The notes beneath the pieces were generated by a model that made no database searches, was not told the origin of the DNA, and saw nothing but the letters and a program-made list of their open reading frames with translations. A stretch of 42,665 nucleotides of DNA from Verrucomicrobiota bacterium (GTDB taxonomy: Bacteria > Verrucomicrobiota > Verrucomicrobiia > Verrucomicrobiales > DEV007). Positions 17,461 through 31,890 of this stretch are shown here, one piece after another. A program made the translations under genes and the position numbers. Position 1 is the stretch's first letter, and every line of letters starts with the position of its first letter. Location of the stretch: contig JAGWVU010000042.1 in assembly GCA_018970725.1 (NCBI GenBank), forward strand, positions 1-42,665, read 5' to 3'.

Positions 17461-18161
17461 GGTTGTCTGGGCTCGGTCGGGGCGACGGCTCGCATCTTGG
17501 ACTGCAGCCAGCCGGGCAGCGCCTCCGCCCCGTAAACTTGTTCGGCCAGGCTTTCAAGCTGTTGCGACGCCTCTTCCCGCTTCCCCGCCTCGCGCAGCAG
17601 GTCCGCGATCACCAGCCGGGTGGTCGGCAAGATCGCCGCCTCGGGTTGGCGCCGCAATTCCTCCGCCAGCTCCAGCGCGGTGCCGCTCAGTTTGGCCACC
17701 ATCGCCCGTTGCTCCAGAAGCATGGGGGCCGGAACCGGTCCGTCCCGGATCACCAGCTCCCCCGCGGCACCGGTGATCGGAACCGCATCGGGAAACCCGA
17801 CTTCGTAGAACCCGGCCGATGGTTGACCTTGGAGCAACCACCACGCCTCCGCAACCGCCCCGGGCCCAAGGCTGGCGGGGAGGGAGCGCAGGACTTTCCA
17901 GGAAACTTCCGGCGCACCTTCTATCCCCGGAACCGCCCCGGCCGGAACCCGGACCCGGAAGCGGTAACGATTGCGGACCTCGACCTTCACCAATACAGGA
18001 ACCCCTTGGGGCACTTCGCAGGCGGCCTGCTGATTCACCGTCCAAACCGCCTCCAGACGTCCCCGGACGGGATCGAAAGCCAAGCGATCACAACCCGTGC
18101 CTGCCATCGCCAGAACCAAGACCCCCCACCCTCCTGCAAACTGGAAACGCGGCATCTTCAT
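17457..18161 (-). CDS. Lipoprotein of unknown function
   Basis: The 234-residue product has a lipoprotein signal ending in MAGTGC (acylated Cys near position 24). The mature part starts with a beta-rich domain (VWTVNQQAACEVPQGVPVLV, VKVEVRNRYRFRVRVPAG) that looks Ig-like. It ends in alpha-helices with a TPR-like character (AILPTTRLVIADLLREAGKR). No family is recognised. Four-base overlaps at both ends with the large exported protein and the HAD gene show tight coupling, so the three products probably work together. Confidence 0.7.
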   Translation of the reverse strand: MKMPRFQFAGGWGVLVLAMAGTGCDRLAFDPVRGRLEAVWTVNQQAACEVPQGVPVLVKVEVRNRYRFRVRVPAGAVPGIEGAPEVSWKVLRSLPASLGPGAVAEAWWLLQGQPSAGFYEVGFPDAVPITGAAGELVIRDGPVPAPMLLEQRAMVAKLSGTALELAEELRRQPEAAILPTTRLVIADLLREAGKREEASQQLESLAEQVYGAEALPGWLQSKMRAVAPTEPRQP

Positions 18162-20047
18162 GATTCAGGACCAAATTCAGCAAGCCCGAGGATCCTCGCC
18201 AAATCCCCGGCTAACGGAACCGGGTCCGCCTGGCCGTCGGTGAAAAGTCCCGGACAACCGGGCCGGGGACGAATCGCACGAAGCGCCTTCCGCTGCGCGG
18301 CCTCGTCTTCCAGACGCTGCAAGGCCGGTAGAAAATGCGCCCGCAAATCTTCCACCACCAACACCTCCTTCATCGCGGTCTCGCCAGGCCCGAGAAAAAT
18401 CAGGTCGATGTCCCAAGGCGAAAACCGCCGCTGCAACGCGATCCGCTCCTCTTCACCCAGGCAATCGCCGGGATCGGTCAGAAAAACCTCCCGCCGCTCC
18501 GGGGAAAGTCTCCGGTGCCGCCCATCCACGATCAGCCCGCGCCACTCCTCGGCCCGGGACAACCCGTCGCCATCCGCATCCTCCGCCCCGCTTCCGAAAC
18601 CCGGGGGCACTCCGTCGGGCCCGGCCCCGGTCGGAATCTTCAGGGCGGGCGCCGGCGCCGCGCCGTCACCGCTCCGGGCGGGCAACTCCTCCCAAATTCC
18701 CTCCACCTTGACCCGGACGACCAACTGACCGCCCGCCCCCCAATCGGCCACCGTCACCTGCACCGGGATCTCCTCCCGGACTTGATCCCGGCCGAGCCGG
18801 AGGTTCCCGGTTCCGTTCCGGTCCACCACAAACCCGGGATGATCGGCCGCCTCCAACGAAAGATCCGGACCGGAATCGATGGGCGATGTCGGCACGATCA
18901 CTTCGGACCGGGTCCAAGACAGGGAAAAATCCTCCTCCCGGAAATCCACGGGGACCCGGCGCACTTTGTCCCGCCAACCGGGGGGACGGCTCAGGAGAAC
19001 CGCCCCGCCATTGCCGGCCACCCCGGGATGCCGGGACACCCCCGCCAGACCGAGCTCGAGTTCCTCGACCAAACCGGGACGGGTCAGTCTGATGACGAAG
19101 GGCAGCTTGCCCCCCATCTCCGGCCATCGCCCGGTTTCCTTGGCCGCCGCAACGGGTCCGAACCAACCCACGTCCGGCGGTTGCCCGAGACTCAACTCCC
19201 AACGGATCTGCACCGCCATCTCGCCAAAACCGCCCGAGACCCCCGGCAACGCCTCGCTGACCGTCCGGGTCAAGACCTCGCCTCCCGCGATCAACCGGCT
19301 CGCGGACAGCGCCCGCGGAATCCGCAAATCCTCGTCCTCGAAAACGAATTCCGGTCCAGAGATCCGCCCGTGCCGCAGGGAACGCCCCTCCCTGCCGGAG
19401 CCGATCGCCAGAGAGTAACGCGGCTGGAGAACCGATTTTCCCGTCACCGGGGCCGACTCCACCCAACGCCCTTGCTGCAAGGTCCGCGCCGTGACCCGGT
19501 CCGTGCGGACTGATTCCCCGCTCCGGACCACGGACCATCCGGGAACCGGGGCCTTCCCTTTCTCCGGGGACAGGGCCATCACCTCCACCAACGGTTGGGG
19601 CCCGGGACCGATCCGGATGCGGAGCGGCGCGCCCCGGATCAGCTCCTCCCAATCCGGCCCGGCCGGAAGCTCGAGCCGCACTTCCATCCGTTCGTCAAAG
19701 CGTTCTTGCACCTCATGCCGGGAGAGCCAGGAGCCGGGAGCCTCGCCCTCCCCGTCCAAGGTGTGGACGCTCCGGTTTGATCCGGAGAAAACCGCGCGGA
19801 GTGCTTTGGGCAACAACTGCTTTTCCCCCGCCATCTCCACCGCCAGAAACTCCTCCGCCTCAAGCCGGAGCCGGGCCTCTCCGACCCGCAGCTCCACAAA
19901 AAAACGGGCCGGGACCGAAGAAACCCGGGGCGCGGCATCGACCGCCCACCCGGGGCAGACCGGGGCGAAAAGGCAGGCAACGAGAATCCGGACCGGAGCC
20001 AACAGGCGGACCGGAGGCTGGCATGGAGGATGCTTCCTCCTCTTCAC
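18158..20047 (-). CDS. Large exported protein with Ca-binding-type repeat, unknown function
   Basis: From a GTG at 20047 the product is about 629 residues with a basic N-terminus and a signal-like helix (RLLAPVRILVACLFAPV..GWA). An ATG at 20098 is an alternative start. The mature protein is beta-rich with no recognised enzyme domain, and near residue ~500 carries DADGDGLSRAEEW, the D-x-D-x-D-G pattern of EF-hand/thrombospondin type 3 Ca sites that often ends exported Verrucomicrobial proteins. The C-terminal ~120 residues after it (WDIDLIFLGPGETAMKEVLV onward) look globular and helical. First gene of the coupled operon with the lipoprotein and HAD phosphatase. Confidence 0.68.
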   Translation of the reverse strand: MKRRKHPPCQPPVRLLAPVRILVACLFAPVCPGWAVDAAPRVSSVPARFFVELRVGEARLRLEAEEFLAVEMAGEKQLLPKALRAVFSGSNRSVHTLDGEGEAPGSWLSRHEVQERFDERMEVRLELPAGPDWEELIRGAPLRIRIGPGPQPLVEVMALSPEKGKAPVPGWSVVRSGESVRTDRVTARTLQQGRWVESAPVTGKSVLQPRYSLAIGSGREGRSLRHGRISGPEFVFEDEDLRIPRALSASRLIAGGEVLTRTVSEALPGVSGGFGEMAVQIRWELSLGQPPDVGWFGPVAAAKETGRWPEMGGKLPFVIRLTRPGLVEELELGLAGVSRHPGVAGNGGAVLLSRPPGWRDKVRRVPVDFREEDFSLSWTRSEVIVPTSPIDSGPDLSLEAADHPGFVVDRNGTGNLRLGRDQVREEIPVQVTVADWGAGGQLVVRVKVEGIWEELPARSGDGAAPAPALKIPTGAGPDGVPPGFGSGAEDADGDGLSRAEEWRGLIVDGRHRRLSPERREVFLTDPGDCLGEEERIALQRRFSPWDIDLIFLGPGETAMKEVLVVEDLRAHFLPALQRLEDEAAQRKALRAIRPRPGCPGLFTDGQADPVPLAGDLARILGLAEFGPES

Positions 20048-20123
20048 AGAGTTCGCCCCAGCGGGTTCTGTCCGGCTGAATCCGTGTAAGGGCGGCATCG
20101 TCCAATCGACAACTCCATTCAGA

Positions 20124-20810
20124 GTGATACGCACCGTTCCAACCAGCTGCAAGCGCCGTCTTGAATCACGGGACTTCGAGTTCATCGCCCAAACCCTCTC
20201 CAACGGGGACCCGCAGGGAACCGAATGCCTCCTGCAACTCGCCGCGGATCCGGAGTCGCTCGACTCCCTGCTCCATCATCCCAAGCTCCTCCGAGCCATC
20301 ATCGGTCTCGAGTCCCCCGTCAATATCACTCCCCAACTCTATTTCTACGTCCTCCTCCGTCACGTCCTCAAGGAGTCCGGCCTCAACCACGCCGGGCTCT
20401 GCGACTACGTCTCCGCCACCCTGGCTGATTTCGCTTCCGGCGAAGGTCCGCTCCGCCCGAAACGCGGCGAACCCCTCAGCGATGCCCCGTATCACATCGA
20501 TTTCATCGAGGAACTCAACGTCGCCAGCACCTACGACAAATTCTATCTCCACGTCCGCTGCGGCAACCAGTTCATGGTCCTCACCGGTCTCTTCCCCCGC
20601 TTCCTTGAACACCGCGAGGAACGGCGCGGCGCCCCGGGCGTCCGCTATTACGAGGGCGTGGCCCGCGATTCCTTCCGCTCCGCCCGGAATCATCCACTGG
20701 CCAACGAGTTCGCCCTCGCGGAAGTCTACGACCTCCTCTGCACGGAGTTCACCCGCACCCGCATGGCGCTGAACCGGATGGCCCGGGAATTCCTCTGGCT
20801 CGGCGCCTGA
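20124..20810 (+). CDS. Unknown protein, first gene of a four-gene cluster
   Basis: There is no ATG near the plausible start; a GTG at 20124 gives 228 residues. The conserved-looking part begins at RDFEFIAQTLSNGD (about residue 16). Predicted mainly helical, with features such as LESPVNITPQLYFYVLLRHV, PYHIDFIEELNVASTYDKFY and HPLANEFALAEVYDLLCTEF. No signal peptide, membrane segment or known motif is visible. Codon use (strong GC3) is like the neighbours, and the opposite strand offers no better gene, so it is likely real. It is divergent from the operon at 18158-20047 and precedes the winged-helix/actin-like/pentapeptide genes by a dyad-bearing gap. Confidence 0.65.
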   Translation: MIRTVPTSCKRRLESRDFEFIAQTLSNGDPQGTECLLQLAADPESLDSLLHHPKLLRAIIGLESPVNITPQLYFYVLLRHVLKESGLNHAGLCDYVSATLADFASGEGPLRPKRGEPLSDAPYHIDFIEELNVASTYDKFYLHVRCGNQFMVLTGLFPRFLEHREERRGAPGVRYYEGVARDSFRSARNHPLANEFALAEVYDLLCTEFTRTRMALNRMAREFLWLGA

Positions 20811-20841
20811 AGCCACGCGCCCCACCCGTCCGCCGGGCCGA

Positions 20842-20892
20842 GGGAGATTTGATTTGATCTTACAGAAGATCAAATTATCCTAACAATCTCCC
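20842..20892 (+). promoter_or_regulatory. Two-step dyad directly before the start at 20895
   Basis: Outer arms GGGAGATT (20842-20849) and AATCTCCC (20885-20892) enclose inner arms ATTTGATCTT (20852-20861) and AAGATCAAAT (20866-20875), with loop ACAG. The whole 51-base element fills the space between two genes and ends two bases before the ATG. As RNA it would be a long hairpin that hides the start region; as DNA it is a candidate operator, perhaps for the winged-helix-like product of the next gene. The inner part is AT-rich and there is no T run, so it is not an ordinary terminator. Confidence 0.7.
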
Positions 20893-20894
20893 GA

Positions 20895-21788
20895 ATGACC
20901 GTCGATCGCCCGCTCACCTCCACCGAAGCCAAGATCCGGCAAAGCATCGTCTCCGCCTTGGAGTCCGCGGCCCGCCCGCTCACCTTCCGCCAGTTGCGGA
21001 CCGCCTACGACGGCCCGGAAGCTTCCGAGGAATTGCTCCGTTCACTCTTGAACCGTGCGGTCGTCGCCGGAGCGGTCTTTCCCTGTGGCGGAGACCGTTT
21101 CTGGCATCGGGACGAGAAGCAGCTTCACCTCAGGGCCGCCCTCGCCTTGATCCAGGAAAAGCCGCGGACCAAGAGCGAGTTGGTCCGGGCCCTCGGTGAG
21201 CTGGACACCGGTGCCACCGAAGTCTGGAGGGAACAGATCTTCGAGGAACTTCGGGAAAGTCCCGGAATCCACGTGCTGCCCGTGCTGGGCAACCAACGCT
21301 CCCACCGCCTCTCCTGCAAACCGCCCCGGCTGGAGGATTACATCGACCGCGCCCGGGCCGAATACAAAAAGGCCCGGACGGCCCTGACCGAGGCCGGTTA
21401 TGCCGAGGCGGACATTCTCCGCGCCATCTGCGGGGTCCAGATCCAAAACCGGACCGACCCGCCCCCGGAGGCCCGCCGCCAGCTCCTGCCCGCGCGGGCC
21501 GACGACGACCTCGATTTCCAACGGGACGCCGCGGAGCTGCTTGTCTTCGCCTGGCAGGACAGCCCGTCCCCGGAGGCCCGCGCCATCCTCGAGGACACGC
21601 TCTTCAGTCTGGGGCTCGACCCCGTCGGCAAACCGGGGGAAGTCACGGGGTTCGATGGCCGGCTGCAACATTGCACGGGGCAGCTCGCCCCCACCCAACA
21701 AGTGCGCGTCACCCGGCAGGGCTGGCAGCTGCGCAACGCCCGGGGCCATCATCTGGTGGCCAAGGCGCGCGTCGAACCCGTTTCCTGA
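20895..21788 (+). CDS. Possible winged-helix protein with C-terminal beta domain
   Basis: The 297-residue product starts with what looks like two successive winged-helix units (residues about 10-70: AKIRQSIVSALESAARPLTF then RQLRTAYDG..; about 75-145: LRAALALIQEKPRTKSELVR). A helical middle follows (LEDYIDRARAEYKKARTALT). The last ~45 residues have the pattern G-x-x-x-x-FDG-x-x-x-H ... V-x-V-x-x-x-GW ... KA-x-V, reminiscent of the short beta-barrel tail found in some GrpE-like or Hsp70-associated proteins. No catalytic motif is visible. It precedes the actin/Hsp70-like gene by 21 bases, so a role as DNA-binding or nucleotide-exchange partner of that ATPase is plausible but unproven. A large dyad covers its start. 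Confidence 0.68.
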   Translation: MTVDRPLTSTEAKIRQSIVSALESAARPLTFRQLRTAYDGPEASEELLRSLLNRAVVAGAVFPCGGDRFWHRDEKQLHLRAALALIQEKPRTKSELVRALGELDTGATEVWREQIFEELRESPGIHVLPVLGNQRSHRLSCKPPRLEDYIDRARAEYKKARTALTEAGYAEADILRAICGVQIQNRTDPPPEARRQLLPARADDDLDFQRDAAELLVFAWQDSPSPEARAILEDTLFSLGLDPVGKPGEVTGFDGRLQHCTGQLAPTQQVRVTRQGWQLRNARGHHLVAKARVEPVS

Positions 21789-21809
21789 CCCTGTCCCCTC
21801 ATTCTTCTC

Positions 21810-23141
21810 ATGAACTACCAGATCAGCATCGATTTCGGAAATTCATTCACCAAGGTCGGCATCCGCAATCAAGCCCCCCTGGACCCGGACGGCCGGGCCT
21901 GCTCGACGACCGGGTTGCTCCAGGATGAATGGCTCAAAATGGACGAACACAACTTCTGTATTCCCACCCTGGCCGCCCGCGGCCTTGAGATGGGCCGGGA
22001 AGTCTGGTGTTACGGAAACGACGTGGTGGCCCGCGCCTCCACGCTGGGCGATGTCCGGGTCTACCGGAACTGGAAACCGCTCTTCTTCGCCAACGGCGGC
22101 CCGGGCTCCACTGCGGACGGCACGCCGGTCCAACAGATCGGCCTCGGTTACTTCCAGTGGCTGCGGGACTTCGTCGATGGCTATTGCCGGGCCACCGGTC
22201 TCCCGGGCGTCACCACCATGCCGGTGCGGATCACCCTGCCCAGTTTCGGTGCCCAAAACGCCGCCGCCGCCGCCCTGGTGGATCTCTTGGCCCGGACCGG
22301 CTGGAGCCCGACCCGCGTCCGCCCCGCCGTCGCTGAACCGGTCGCCAATTCCATCGGGATCTTCTCCGAAGGCCGCAACGCCATCTGGACGCCCGATCCC
22401 GGCATCAGCGGCGGAGAGGCTTATCCCTTTTATCCTGAGATGTTCGGCGATTCCGAGTTCTTCGAGGCCACCCGACAGTACGCGCGATTCGCCGGCCAGT
22501 ATGACATGGAGCGCACCCACTGGGTCTTTGTGGCTGATCTTGGCGGTTATACGACCGACTTCGCCATGCTCGGGTTCGACCTCGCCCGACCCGATCAAGC
22601 TTTCGAGGCCGCCGCCAGCAGCCGCCGGGGCTGCTACGCCCATTACTCGGAACCGATGGGGATCGCGGATCTCGACCGCAGGGTCCGCGCCGCTTTGCCG
22701 GAAGAACAGCAATCCGCTTTCGACGACATGGCGAACGCCAGTGATCCCAGGATCGAAAATTTTCACCGCCTCTTTTACGCCACCCTGCGCCCGTTCCGTT
22801 CCGGCGGGGTGCGCATCGCCGAGGGCGCGGAGATCGAATCGGTGAAGGCCGCGGTGGACGGCTTCGCGGAGGAGGTCGCCCTCAGCGCGGAACGCTTTTT
22901 GGACATGCATCAGTTCCAACGGGTGGATCAGCTGCTCGTGACCGGAGGCGGGTTCAACGTGCCGGCCGTGCGGGACGCCCTTGTGACCAAGTTGGACGGC
23001 TTTGAGTTGCAGCGGGTCTACCGGCCCGTCAGCCGTTTGGAGACCGGCCTGGACGGGCGTCATGCCAGTCTCAGCGCCACCTTGGTGCGCGGCGCTACCG
23101 CCCTCGGAGGCGCCAGCGTCTACTTCGAGGGGCTGAATTGA
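21810..23141 (+). CDS. Actin/Hsp70-fold ATPase (ParM/StbA-like)
   Basis: The 443-residue protein shows the ATPase signatures of the actin-Hsp70 superfamily: phosphate-1 DFGNSFTKVG near residue 8, phosphate-2 VADLGGYTTDFAML near 244, and the adenosine motif LLVTGGGFNVPAV near 375. A connect-1-type segment is PAVAEPVANSIGIF. There is no Hsp70 substrate-binding domain, so the size and layout fit ParM/StbA/MamK-like filament formers or single-domain Hsp70-like proteins. It is not MreB, which has other neighbours and motifs. It lies between the winged-helix-like gene and a pentapeptide gene. A chromosomal actin-like protein with such partners suggests partitioning, a cytoskeletal element or a client-specific chaperone; the sequence does not decide. 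Confidence 0.82.
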   Translation: MNYQISIDFGNSFTKVGIRNQAPLDPDGRACSTTGLLQDEWLKMDEHNFCIPTLAARGLEMGREVWCYGNDVVARASTLGDVRVYRNWKPLFFANGGPGSTADGTPVQQIGLGYFQWLRDFVDGYCRATGLPGVTTMPVRITLPSFGAQNAAAAALVDLLARTGWSPTRVRPAVAEPVANSIGIFSEGRNAIWTPDPGISGGEAYPFYPEMFGDSEFFEATRQYARFAGQYDMERTHWVFVADLGGYTTDFAMLGFDLARPDQAFEAAASSRRGCYAHYSEPMGIADLDRRVRAALPEEQQSAFDDMANASDPRIENFHRLFYATLRPFRSGGVRIAEGAEIESVKAAVDGFAEEVALSAERFLDMHQFQRVDQLLVTGGGFNVPAVRDALVTKLDGFELQRVYRPVSRLETGLDGRHASLSATLVRGATALGGASVYFEGLN

Positions 23142-23182
23142 AGGGTTGCAAATCCCCCTCCGAACCCGCAACATTTCTCCAA

Positions 23183-23668
23183 ATGGCAACCATCACCCCT
23201 GACGAGTTAGCGCAACACGCCCTCTGGCTCGATTCAAAAGGAACCCGCGGCAAACAGCTCGACAAGACCGGCAAGGACCTTTCCAATGCCACCCTCCCCG
23301 CCGCCCGCATGGACCGTGCCCTCTTCATCGGCACCAATTTCAGCGGGGCCGATCTCAGCCGCAGCTCCATGATGCAGGTGGACTGCAGCGGCGCCCGCTT
23401 CATCGGCACCAATTTCACCCGCGCGGATTTACGCGGCGCGGATCTCGGGGGCGTCAATCTCGACAAGGTCAACCTCACGGAATGCGATCTGACCGGGGCG
23501 GACCTTTCCGGGGCTACCCTCCGCGAGGCCGTCCTGTATCGGGCCAACTTCGAGAACGCCGATCTCGCCGCCGCCGACCTGACCGGCTCCACCCAGACCC
23601 ATCTCTGCGTCACCGGCGCAAAACTCAACGACGTCAAGGGACTGGTGGTCCGGGACCAGCGTCCCTGA
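23183..23668 (+). CDS. Pentapeptide-repeat protein
   Basis: The ATG at 23183 gives 161 residues. After a ~30-residue head (PDELAQHALWLDSKGTRGKQ) come about 15-20 consecutive A(D/N)LxX-type repeats, for example FSGADLSRSSMM, FTRADLRGADLGGVNL, DLTGADLSGATL and FENADLAAADLTGS. These should form a right-handed quadrilateral beta-helix. Some such proteins mimic DNA and protect gyrase (Qnr, MfpA), but most have no known role. The repeat helix here is short. It follows the actin-like gene by 41 bases on the same strand and is likely in its transcript. Confidence 0.88.
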   Translation: MATITPDELAQHALWLDSKGTRGKQLDKTGKDLSNATLPAARMDRALFIGTNFSGADLSRSSMMQVDCSGARFIGTNFTRADLRGADLGGVNLDKVNLTECDLTGADLSGATLREAVLYRANFENADLAAADLTGSTQTHLCVTGAKLNDVKGLVVRDQRP

Positions 23669-23713: not shown

Positions 23714-26155
23714 TCAGGCCGCCTTTGAGGTGCCCAGCGTTTCCTGGATGCAGTGCCGGAGATCGTCGAGTGAGACCGGTTTGGTCATGAACTGATCCAT
23801 CCCCGCCTTGCGGCACTCTTCACGCACCCCGGTGAGGGCATGGCCTGTCAGGGCCACAATCACCGGCTGCTTCGGCAGCAGGAAATTCCGCCGGATTTCC
23901 TTGCACGCGTCCAGCCCGCCCATCACCGGCATCTGGAGATCCATCAAGATCAGATCGAAACAGGCGCGCTGGTTGACCAGGTCGACGGCGTCCCGCCCGT
24001 TGTCGGCGATCTCCACCTCGTAACCGAGCTTTTGCAGCATCATGGAGACAATCCGCTGGTTCATCGCCTGATCCTCCACCAGCAACACTTTCCCGGGAAA
24101 ACGTGCGGCGAAGGACTCCCCGTCATTAGGAGATCCCGAGCCGTTCCGGGCGGTGGTCAGGGCGGGGCGATGGCTCAGCGCGTCGGCGGAGCGGCGGATC
24201 AAATCCATTTCCTTGACCGGTTTGGTGACCCATTGCACCAAGTTGCCCTCCTCGCCCAGCCAGGGGAAGGTCTCGCCGAGACGACTCACCACAAGAAGGG
24301 GAAAGCGGGCCTCAAGCAGCTTCCGGAGGAAACCCTTCAGCTCTTCCTCGGGCGCCACATCGGCCTCGATGACCGCCAGTTCCGGTTCCAGCGCCGCCAG
24401 CCGATGCATCTCAGCCGCCCCCAGCCCGGAGACGCATTCCGCCTGGGCTCCCCACGTTTCCAACTGGCGTCGCATCAATTGCGCCAGCGAACCACGGGCG
24501 ATCACCGCAACCCGGCGCTTTTTCATCTCCACCAGCAGGCGCTCCCGGTCCGGACTCGCGGAATACTTCGGCACCGTCCGGTAGGGGAACTCGAGATGAA
24601 AGACGGACCCGACGCCGAGCTGGCTGCGGACTCCAACCTCCCCGTTCATCAGCGTGCTCAGCTTGCGGCAGATCGCCAGCCCCAGCCCGGATCCCCCATA
24701 CTTCCGCGTGGTGGTGAAGTCCGCTTGCTGGAAAGCTTCGAAAATGGTCTCCAACTTGTCTTCGGCGATCCCGATCCCGGTGTCCCGCACTTCGATGCGC
24801 AGACACTGGGGCAAGTTGCCCGCCCTGGGGATGACGTCGGCCCGGAGTTCGATCTCCCCGTCCGTGGTGAACTTCGCGGCGTTCCCCACCAGACTGACCA
24901 GAATCTGCTTCAACCGCTCCCGATCAACGTAAATCTGGAACGGCACCCTCGGGTCCACATCCAGCAGCAAGTCGAGATTCTTCTCCGCCATGGTGGGCGC
25001 GAACATCTCGCCGATTTCATCAAACAGCTTCCGCACCTCGGCCGGCGTTTCGTCCAAGACCATCTTCGCGGTCTCCAACTTCGAGTAGTCCAGCACGTCG
25101 TTGATAATATGGAGCAGCGACTGCCCGCTGGCGCGGATGATCTTCAACATGTCTCTCTGCTGCGGGGCCAGCGGGGTCTCCACCATCAGGCTCGTAGTCC
25201 CGATGATCCCGTTCATCGGCGTCCGGATCTCGTGACTCATGTTCGCCAGGAAATCGGACTTCGCCACCATGGCCGACTCGGCCTCCTTCTTGGCCGCCAT
25301 GAGATCCCGCATCGCCTCGTTGTCCCGCGCCCGCCCGTGTTCCAGGTATTGGGCCAACAGGTTGAATCCCATCTGAGCCTGCCCGATCTCGTCTTTCCGG
25401 TTCACCCGGATGCGATATTCGTAGCGCCCTTGCGCCACCTCATCGATCCCGGCTACCAGGGACCGGATGTCCCCGACCACGCTCCGCAGGATGAGCCACC
25501 CGGCCGGAATCGCCAACCCGAGGGAGACCAGCAATGCCAGCCCCACACAGAGCAGAAACCACAGCCAGTTCATCGGTGGCGGCGCGAAATCATCGCGCAA
25601 CATCACCACCCCGCCCACCCGGCACTCCCCGTCACTCCCGGGCACAAGGGAATAGATCGGGGACCCCACGGTGATCCGCCGGATCCGCGTCTCCACCTGC
25701 CTTCCGCCCGGTTTTGATGCCACGCTCCGGACCATCTTGCGGACGTTCACCGAAGTCCCGCCCTCCTTGGCCGTCCGCAGTACCGCCCCGCCCTCAAGGT
25801 CAACCGCCATCTCCACCTTGTCCGGTGCGTTGGCCACCATCATCCTCCATCCGCCCCCCTCCGGGCTCCGGGCGAAGACCACGTATTCACGCTCGCCCGG
25901 ACCAAGCGATTTCAGGATGTTCTCCAACGCCTCCTTCTCTTCCAAATCAGCCCCGCGCAGGGCTTGGCTCATCCGGAAGGCAAGTTCGGTGAGCATCCGC
26001 TCCTGAGCCGTTTCCTCGTCCCGCCGCTCAAGAAAATGCAGCGCCACGGCCATGATACAGCCGGAGACAAGAACCATCAGGCAGGTGAAGGTCAACTGCC
26101 GGAAGGAGATGGAAGTGAATGGACTCATTCGCCGCGAAGCGGCAGAGTTCCACAT
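23714..26155 (-). CDS. Hybrid sensor histidine kinase with degenerate and intact receivers
   Basis: The 813-residue protein has an N-terminal membrane helix (about 20-40), a periplasmic sensing region (to ~195), a second helix (~197-225), a HAMP domain (to ~275) and a HisKA box with phosphoacceptor H308 ([20 protein letters not shown]). The ATPase domain shows NAAKFT (425-430), DTGIGI and GGSGLGL. A first receiver-like domain (~546-660) has Glu (E597) where the phosphorylated Asp should be and lacks the acidic pair, while keeping the TKP lysine. The second receiver is complete (VED at 693-695, D739, K792 in TKP). No separate output regulator is adjacent. An ATG at 26128 is an alternative start. 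It is convergent with the pentapeptide gene. Confidence 0.92.
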
Positions 26156-30235: not shown

Positions 30236-30317
30236 TGCTCTCGAGAGGATTCGAACCTCCACGGGTCTCCCCACTAGATCCTGAATCTAGCGCGTCTACC
30301 GATTCCGCCACGAGAGC
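30236..30317 (-). tRNA. tRNA-Leu (anticodon CAG)
   Basis: The minus strand folds into a class II tRNA: acceptor stem GCTCTCG/CGAGAGC with discriminator A, D-loop GGCGGAATCGGTAGACGC, anticodon stem CTAGA/TCTAG with loop TTCAGGA (anticodon CAG), a variable arm (TGGGGAGACCCGT), and T-loop GGTTCGAATCC. The A73 discriminator and long variable arm fit leucine. No CCA is encoded. Confidence 0.95.
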
Positions 30318-31817: not shown

Positions 31818-31890
31818 GGGGCATTAGCTCAGTCGGTAGAGCGTCTCGTTCGCAATGAGAAGGTCAGCGGTTCGAACCCGCTATGCTCCA
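31818..31890 (+). tRNA. tRNA-Ala (anticodon CGC)
   Basis: GGGGCAT/ATGCTCC acceptor stem with discriminator A, D-arm AGCTCAGTCGGTAGAGC, anticodon stem TCTCG/TGAGA with loop TTCGCAA (anticodon CGC, reading GCG), and T-arm AGCGGTTCGAACCCGCT. No CCA is encoded. The GGGGC start, with a G3-T70 wobble, is the alanine identity element. A broken Fic gene lies 86 bases downstream. Confidence 0.95.

Follow-up and report, generated by a model that had tools for sequence, protein, structure and literature searches.

A conserved gene pair encoding a stand-alone Hsp70-type ATPase and a putative winged-helix partner with a GrpE-like domain in Verrucomicrobiota and other bacteria

Introduction

Hsp70s are usually defined by an ATPase that is coupled to a peptide-binding domain. 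The prokaryotic members fall into three types, DnaK, HscA and HscC, according to the relevant passages of PMC8215388, in which HscA and HscC are specialised, patchily distributed relatives of the generalist DnaK that retain the substrate-binding domain and work without, or probably without, GrpE. The architecture of GrpE includes a disordered N-terminus and a stalk, as outlined in the part of PMC12987570 concerned with it. In some GAP1-N2 conflict systems HSP70, GrpE and an HSP70 domain without the peptide-binding domain are found, as stated in the section on these systems (Kaur et al. 2020, PMC7159879). Here we describe a pair of adjacent genes, encoding a 443-residue ATPase and a 297-residue partner protein, in a stretch of 42,665 nucleotides (the window, always meant at its full length) that is part of contig C23 of a 4.9-Mb draft genome; by name, the nearest relatives of the window are metagenome-assembled genomes (MAGs) of Verrucomicrobiota.

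The pair resembles DnaK and GrpE in that the ATPase has the predicted fold over the full nucleotide-binding domain and the beta-domain of the partner appears remotely homologous to GrpE. It differs from them in lacking a substrate-binding domain, and its sequences are too distant for Pfam. Where GrpE has its disordered N-terminus and stalk (as outlined in PMC12987570), the partner has predicted winged helices, and the arrangement is the reverse of that given for HscA and HscC in the passages cited from PMC8215388. Because the substrate-binding domain is absent, the pair is placed outside the DnaK, HscA and HscC families and is filed here as a variant of the Hsp70-GrpE kind. The nearest precedent we have seen is the HSP70 reduced to its nucleotide-binding domain and encoded near GrpE in the GAP1-N2 systems (PMC7159879, in the section cited). 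Those systems sit with GTPases and FNIII-repeat proteins, neither of which was noticed at the loci of the pair, where ten locus proteins were scanned against Pfam. No account of the ATPase-partner pair was recognised in the open-access literature searched, which agrees with a preliminary description of this DNA that had seen here its best candidate for an undescribed system.

Results and discussion

The conserved unit is a pair of genes

The preliminary description had proposed a cluster of four co-directional genes, and all four open reading frames are present on the plus strand (20124-20810, 20895-21788, 21810-23141 and 23138-23668). The genes are real, but only the middle two are conserved as a unit:

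20895-21788, plus strand: partner protein of 297 residues, with two predicted winged helices, helices, a linker and a C-terminal GrpE-like beta-domain.
21810-23141, plus strand: stand-alone ATPase of 443 residues, of the Hsp70 nucleotide-binding-domain type and without a substrate-binding domain.

A screen of 57 genomes detected the ATPase in four, the window's own genome included. The latter carries three copies, on C23 (the window), C94 and C9, and directly upstream of all three lies a gene that encodes the partner's C-terminal domain, as is also the case in the other three genomes (G001, G002 and G020). Scanning of genome contigs yielded 34 ATPase loci in 25 genomes which, judged by their record names, belong mainly to Verrucomicrobiota and Planctomycetota, and also to Myxococcota, Gemmatimonadota and one uncultured bacterium; a Bacteroidales MAG is among the 25, and its ATPase copy groups with those of Planctomycetes. 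A hidden Markov model of the C-terminal domain, built from the partners themselves, matched directly upstream and on the same strand at 30 of the 34 loci. The same 30 were recovered with an earlier profile of ten rows from the window's family and genus, which found 24 of the 28 loci outside the profile. One further contig (L034) starts inside the ATPase gene, so that the upstream position is out of view. The distance between partner and ATPase ranges from -11 to 50 base pairs with a median of 10 in 31 pairs, a count that leaves out L033 (ATPase cut) and includes some hand-chosen starts. At L053 (3106-7200) the order is partner-ATPase-partner-ATPase in tandem.

Most of the genomes reached via these loci have a single ATPase match (17 of 20), whereas there are five in one verrucomicrobial genome, two in a genome of Myxococcales, and a second, weak one in another genome. 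The module is rare, as even draws from two phyla show. Strong matches were confined to the window's own genome among 387 genomes of its phylum (six others at E 1.8e-4 or weaker) and to the centre genome among 294 of the Gemmata phylum (17 others at E 2.2e-8 or weaker), in searches that were limited to four or five scored candidates for each genome and may miss copies.

The subtypes of ATPase and partner have diversified in step. Within the window's genus there are three paralogous subtypes, and each forms the same group in both trees, with support of 100/100 for each in the ATPase tree and of 100/94, 100/100 and 98/92 in the partner tree. The two distance matrices are correlated with r 0.86 over 34 rows, which leave out L033 and the loci without partner, and none of 2000 permutations reached as high a value. 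Furthermore, the subtype of the window, with two winged helices by eye, recurs in a planctomycete (L035), in Myxococcota (L036 and L038) and in another verrucomicrobial genome (L037). The ATPases of these four loci are 37-44% identical to that of the window, compared with 33% and 31% for the C94 and C9 copies of the window's own genome.

The ATPase is predicted to be a bare Hsp70 nucleotide-binding domain

The motifs that characterise the actin/Hsp70/sugar-kinase superfamily, namely phosphate-1, phosphate-2 and adenosine, are all present in the ATPase. These had been recognised in the window before, and their key residues are invariant across 34 aligned ATPase rows:

21828-21854, plus strand: phosphate-1 motif IDFGNSFTK, residues 7-15; I7, D8, G10 and K15 invariant in 34 rows.
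22335-22340, plus strand: E176-P177, invariant in 34 rows; pairs with the NEPTAA motif of DnaK.
22536-22559, plus strand: phosphate-2 motif DLGGYTTD, residues 243-250; D243, G245, T248 and D250 invariant in 34 rows; pairs with DLGGGTFD of DnaK.
22941-22952, plus strand: adenosine motif TGGG, residues 378-381; G379-G381 invariant and T378 in at least 90% of 34 rows.

K89 is likewise invariant in these rows. Hsp70 has a catalytic lysine, and K89 probably lies near the place expected for it, the alignment being off by some residues there.

An AlphaFold2 model of the ATPase, with a mean predicted local distance difference test score (pLDDT) of 89.0 and a predicted template modelling score (pTM) of 0.90, points to the Hsp70 nucleotide-binding-domain fold over the full length of the protein. 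VIA-align superposed residues 1-440 of the model on the nucleotide-binding domain of DnaK (6w6e_I) with Z 28.9 and a root-mean-square deviation (rmsd) of 3.3 over 322 aligned residues, and the DnaK of the DnaK-GrpE crystal gave Z 27.5. The best 50 matches listed by VIA-align are Hsp70s and one Hsp110, and every one of the best 50 listed by Foldseek is a chain of the Hsp70 family (E 1.1e-13 for the best; TM-scores of 0.52-0.57 when normalised by query length), while other ASKHA families may match further down. When predicted viral proteins were searched, most of the leading matches that carry a name were Hsp70 homologues. The stand-alone actin/Hsp70-fold ATPase of the preliminary description is supported, and its model has the Hsp70 nucleotide-binding-domain fold from end to end. 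No substrate-binding domain with its conserved linker follows; the protein ends at residue 443 inside the fold, and the pentapeptide-repeat gene comes next.

Some sequence comparisons are in line with this. A profile of the ATPase searched against the PDB matched DnaK/Hsp70 first, at 3e-7 and over positions 233-387 only, and hhalign against the two DnaKs of the same genome gave probabilities of 83.4 (local) and 96.3 (global), without a shuffled control, pairing the phosphate motifs with their DnaK counterparts and E176-P177 with NEPTAA. Neither the ATPase nor the partner has a confident match in Pfam, PHROGs or NCBIfam, and the same holds for the 228-residue product of the first gene, which had been called an unknown protein and keeps that status. 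The NCBIfam entry PRK11678 (‘molecular chaperone’, 450 positions) is similar in length to the window's ATPase and matches it weakly, but at E 0.26 and 10.1 bits against a cut-off of 331. We take PRK11678 to be YegD and know of no dedicated GrpE-like partner for it.

A PilM/GspL-like secretion ATPase was considered on account of Pfam PilM_2 matches (11/34 ATPases) and GspE/GspF-like genes beside the C9-type copies. It was dropped because such a neighbourhood was not noticed at other loci and the fold matches are to Hsp70.

The partner combines predicted winged helices with a GrpE-like domain

Two parts of the partner stand out:

20919-21323, plus strand: two predicted winged helices, residues 9-72 and 73-143, aligned by eye with those of L032, L033 and L035-L038.
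21501-21785, plus strand: GrpE-like C-terminal domain, residues 203-297, consisting of two helices and a beta-domain (241-295); from hhalign and Foldseek.

The AlphaFold2 model of all 297 residues has a mean pLDDT of 90.1 and a pTM of 0.59, the latter as for domains that are loosely placed, and as a prediction it bears out the winged-helix protein with a beta-domain tail that had been proposed. In VIA-align, residues 7-73 superposed on the winged helix of 9j89_D (Z 10.7, rmsd 1.6, 64 aligned) and the second unit, residues 73-143, on 5zi8_B (Z 8.8, rmsd 2.3, 71 aligned). These winged helices filled the rows, and the C-terminal domain was therefore hardly probed by this method.

The C-terminal 95 residues are, as judged from profile comparison, remotely homologous to the beta-domain of GrpE. 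Against 23 GrpE rows hhalign gave probabilities of 91.5/93.4 with scores of 41.7/44.4, and 89.8 in global mode, whereas the best of 50 column shuffles reached a probability of 3.1 and a score of 18.8, and the reversed profile 0.4. The GrpE profile comprised 23 of 25 GrpE loci, leaving out L076 (misread at a contig edge) and L098 (stop in frame). Foldseek likewise listed GrpE chains for the partner, 3a6m_A at E 0.03 and 8gb3_E at E 0.044, and one partner had an NCBIfam GrpE match at E 0.081.

A canonical GrpE is encoded elsewhere in the window's genome, as in all 24 genomes of the GrpE search, and an ordinary DnaK is encoded on C50; the ATPase-partner pair is therefore an extra set. Besides the DnaK on C50, there is a second full-length DnaK-like gene (L002) on contig C14 of the same genome (G000).

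A possible ATPase switch with a dedicated exchange factor

The reading we favour, to which we assign a probability of about 0.62, is that the pair forms a switch in which a stand-alone Hsp70-type ATPase is served by its own GrpE-type exchange factor, and the latter also supplies targeting. It would be a relative of DnaK-GrpE that lacks the half which grips peptides. The 443-residue nucleotide-binding domain would open and close with ATP and ADP. The partner would dock its GrpE-like beta-domain on the ATPase and, once docked, may open it and speed the release of ADP. The winged helices could carry the complex to a target, either a protein complex or a nucleic acid; if they do so, the exchange factor would have taken over targeting from the ATPase, as we propose. 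The computed adjacency, the joint diversification of subtypes, the modelled fold, the remote homology to GrpE, the predicted winged helices and the missing substrate-binding domain are all consistent with this arrangement, whereas physical binding, exchange activity, targeting by winged helices and the target itself are inferred.

Several observations weigh against it. Three loci (L046, L052 and L059) have room upstream of the ATPase and yet no partner. The nearest neighbours of ATPase and partner agree in 23 of 34 rows but differ in 11, and shared species history accounts for part of the r of 0.86. Pfam HSP70 matches only one of 34 ATPases, at E 0.041, and not that of the window, while MreB-like_C matches 14 and PilM_2, as noted above, 11. 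In addition, K15 of the first motif is presumably an actin/ParM-like feature. The Foldseek matches of the partner to GrpE are weak and superpose poorly over the full length (rmsd 24 and 17), and GrpE is not among the 25 listed of the 26 Pfam families matched by 32 partners, the window's partner having no GrpE match over the cut-off in Pfam or NCBIfam. Finally, the partner encoded in the window has recognition helices with net charges of 0 and -2 in its winged helices, so that binding to nucleic acid is doubtful; docking to protein is as likely as binding to DNA.

Of the joint roles that the preliminary description had offered, the homology to Hsp70 and GrpE best suits one as a chaperone-like protein or a switch. 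A role as topoisomerase modulator has lost its basis, because the 228-residue and pentapeptide-repeat genes lie outside the conserved unit.

Alternative readings

An unlikely alternative, though the best placed of those considered, is a module of biological conflict or antiphage defence in which the ATPase would be the sensor of a disturbance and the partner, or a gene in its place, the regulator or effector. Some relatives show distant similarity to the PADLOC profiles PDC-M61A and PDC-M61B, which match both members of the pair: weak matches to PDC-M61B were found in 21 of 34 ATPases (best 1.7e-8) and to PDC-M61A in two of 32 partners (best 5.4e-4). LmuA gave a weak match to the window's partner (15.6 bits, E 0.0013), the occurrence of the pair is patchy, and a bare HSP70 domain near GrpE is known from the GAP1-N2 conflict systems mentioned in the Introduction. 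At L046 (952-7242), one ATPase of the five-copy verrucomicrobial genome, a 1678-residue lipase-SLOG-CHAT protein directly precedes the ATPase in place of the partner. However, the PDC-M61 profiles are much longer (489 and 588 positions for A and B), their matches are weak and partial, and the window's pair has none, the ATPase lacking any PADLOC match at E 0.1 and the partner any to PDC-M61A. In three relatives listed singly, the best stretches cover fewer than 100 of the 588 positions of PDC-M61B. When 288 genomes from the phylum were searched at E 1e-5 and at E 1e-10, neither profile matched, and the controls were silent too; no paper naming PDC-M61 was found in the open-access literature searched. 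Furthermore, many neighbours of the pair look housekeeping-like by eye, most genomes have a single copy, and there is no sign of mobility.

The chromosomal setting bears on the remaining alternatives. At 11 of 34 loci, all in Planctomycetota by record name (clusters 2-4), the pair follows one or more hisD-, hisC- or hisB-like genes, identified by eye, on the same strand, which is a fixed chromosomal place. By eye, the neighbours of the C94 copy are ribonucleotide-reductase-like and export-like genes, and those of the C9 copy are GspE/GspF-like. Relatives of the ATPase, the protein for which these searches were made, were absent from 72,556 plasmid records, searched with two queries, from 50,697 phage records, searched with one, and from viral contigs. 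Plasmid partition, another of the roles offered earlier, is rejected as unlikely because of this absence and the chromosomal synteny.

Upstream of the partner gene lies one further element:

20842-20892, plus strand: two-part inverted repeat that could act as hairpin or operator and stops two bases short of the partner's ATG.

The repeat is retained in both orthologues of the genus. Three of its pairs are changed on both sides among three sequences and the sliding controls gave none, but this covariation is suggestive only, since 40 of 500 shuffles did as well with three sequences. The genome contains the exact core at a single place; at two mismatches or fewer it has 104 places, against nine for the pattern read backwards. 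A comparable repeat (arms of at least 9, loop of at most 10) was found in one of 355 blocks of the window. No known RNA could be assigned, the two Rfam matches being at chance level (13.2 and 12 bits, where the gathering scores are 46 and 70). None of the C94- and C9-type copies inspected has the repeat, which is therefore not a fixed part of the system.

In parM-parR operons a filament ATPase is combined with a DNA adaptor. A ParM-like filament, in which the ATPase polymerises and the winged-helix protein serves as DNA adaptor for chromosomal DNA or other cargo, is somewhat less probable again than a conflict module. It would suit the ASKHA fold, the MreB-like_C matches and one Pfam ParM_N match among the 34 ATPases, the actin-like ATPase 5jyg in the PDB sequence matches (2.2e-4), the predicted winged helices and the repeat before the operon. 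On the other hand, the best solved structures listed are all of the Hsp70 family, with one Hsp110, the partner ends in a GrpE-like domain, the ATPase has no plasmid, phage or viral-contig relative, the place behind his-like genes is fixed, and there is no such repeat at the C94 and C9 paralogues. A pair of transcription regulators, with the winged-helix protein as autorepressor at the repeat and the ATPase as ATP-dependent co-regulator, is very improbable: the winged-helix fold and a conserved repeat so close to the start codon, rare in the window and with a unique exact core, would suit it, but the recognition helices are neutral or negative, the repeat is absent at the two paralogues and may be an RNA hairpin, and simple repression needs no ATPase.

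Neighbouring genes

The outer two genes of the proposed cluster are as follows:

20124-20810, plus strand: protein of 228 residues, family unassigned, GTG start; a neighbour outside the conserved unit.
23138-23668, plus strand: pentapeptide-repeat protein, 176 residues from a TTG, likely start at 23183; a neighbour in the genus only.

The fourth gene had been described as a pentapeptide-repeat gene and is confirmed as such by Pfam PF00805 (E 8.7e-30). Its likelier start is the ATG at 23183, because the two orthologues of the genus begin with MANITPDELAQH or MANISPDELAQH.

At a threshold of E <= 0.001, matches to the 228-residue family are present in 18 of the 57 genomes screened, the window's own included, and 15 of these have no detected ATPase, although G010 is marginal (E 6e-4) and G034 partial; conversely, G020 has the ATPase and no match to the 228-residue protein. 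Among the 34 loci, the 228-residue gene was found at L032 and L033 only, and the pentapeptide-repeat gene at L032 and L034 only, all in the window's genus; neither was found at C94- or C9-type loci. A four-gene system is rejected because the 228-residue family is independent of the ATPase and the pentapeptide-repeat gene is confined to the genus. The adjacency in other genomes by which the cluster was to be judged holds for the pair and not for the 228-residue gene, which is not adjacent outside the genus.

Elsewhere in the window, an open reading frame of 681 residues on the minus strand (18158-20203) has relatives within the genus, no Pfam match and, by eye, a calcium-loop-like DADGDGLSRAEEW stretch. 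The 813-residue protein encoded at 23714-26155 on the minus strand looks by eye like a sensor kinase of the hybrid type that includes a receiver domain. Two tRNA genes lie at 31818-31890 (plus strand) and 30236-30317 (minus strand).

Significance

The pair offers a lead to the function of two families that are unnamed in the curated libraries searched, which gave weak matches only for the pair. Tentatively, and with less confidence than in the switch itself, it may represent a fourth kind of bacterial Hsp70 machine, duplicated within one genome and present in several phyla, in which a bare ATPase would recognise client or nucleic acid through the winged helices of its own GrpE-type exchanger. 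If the proposed mechanism is true, the pair would be an Hsp70 cycle used as a switch, made of an ATPase and a GrpE-type exchanger without a peptide-binding domain, and target specificity conferred by exchange factors would become testable.

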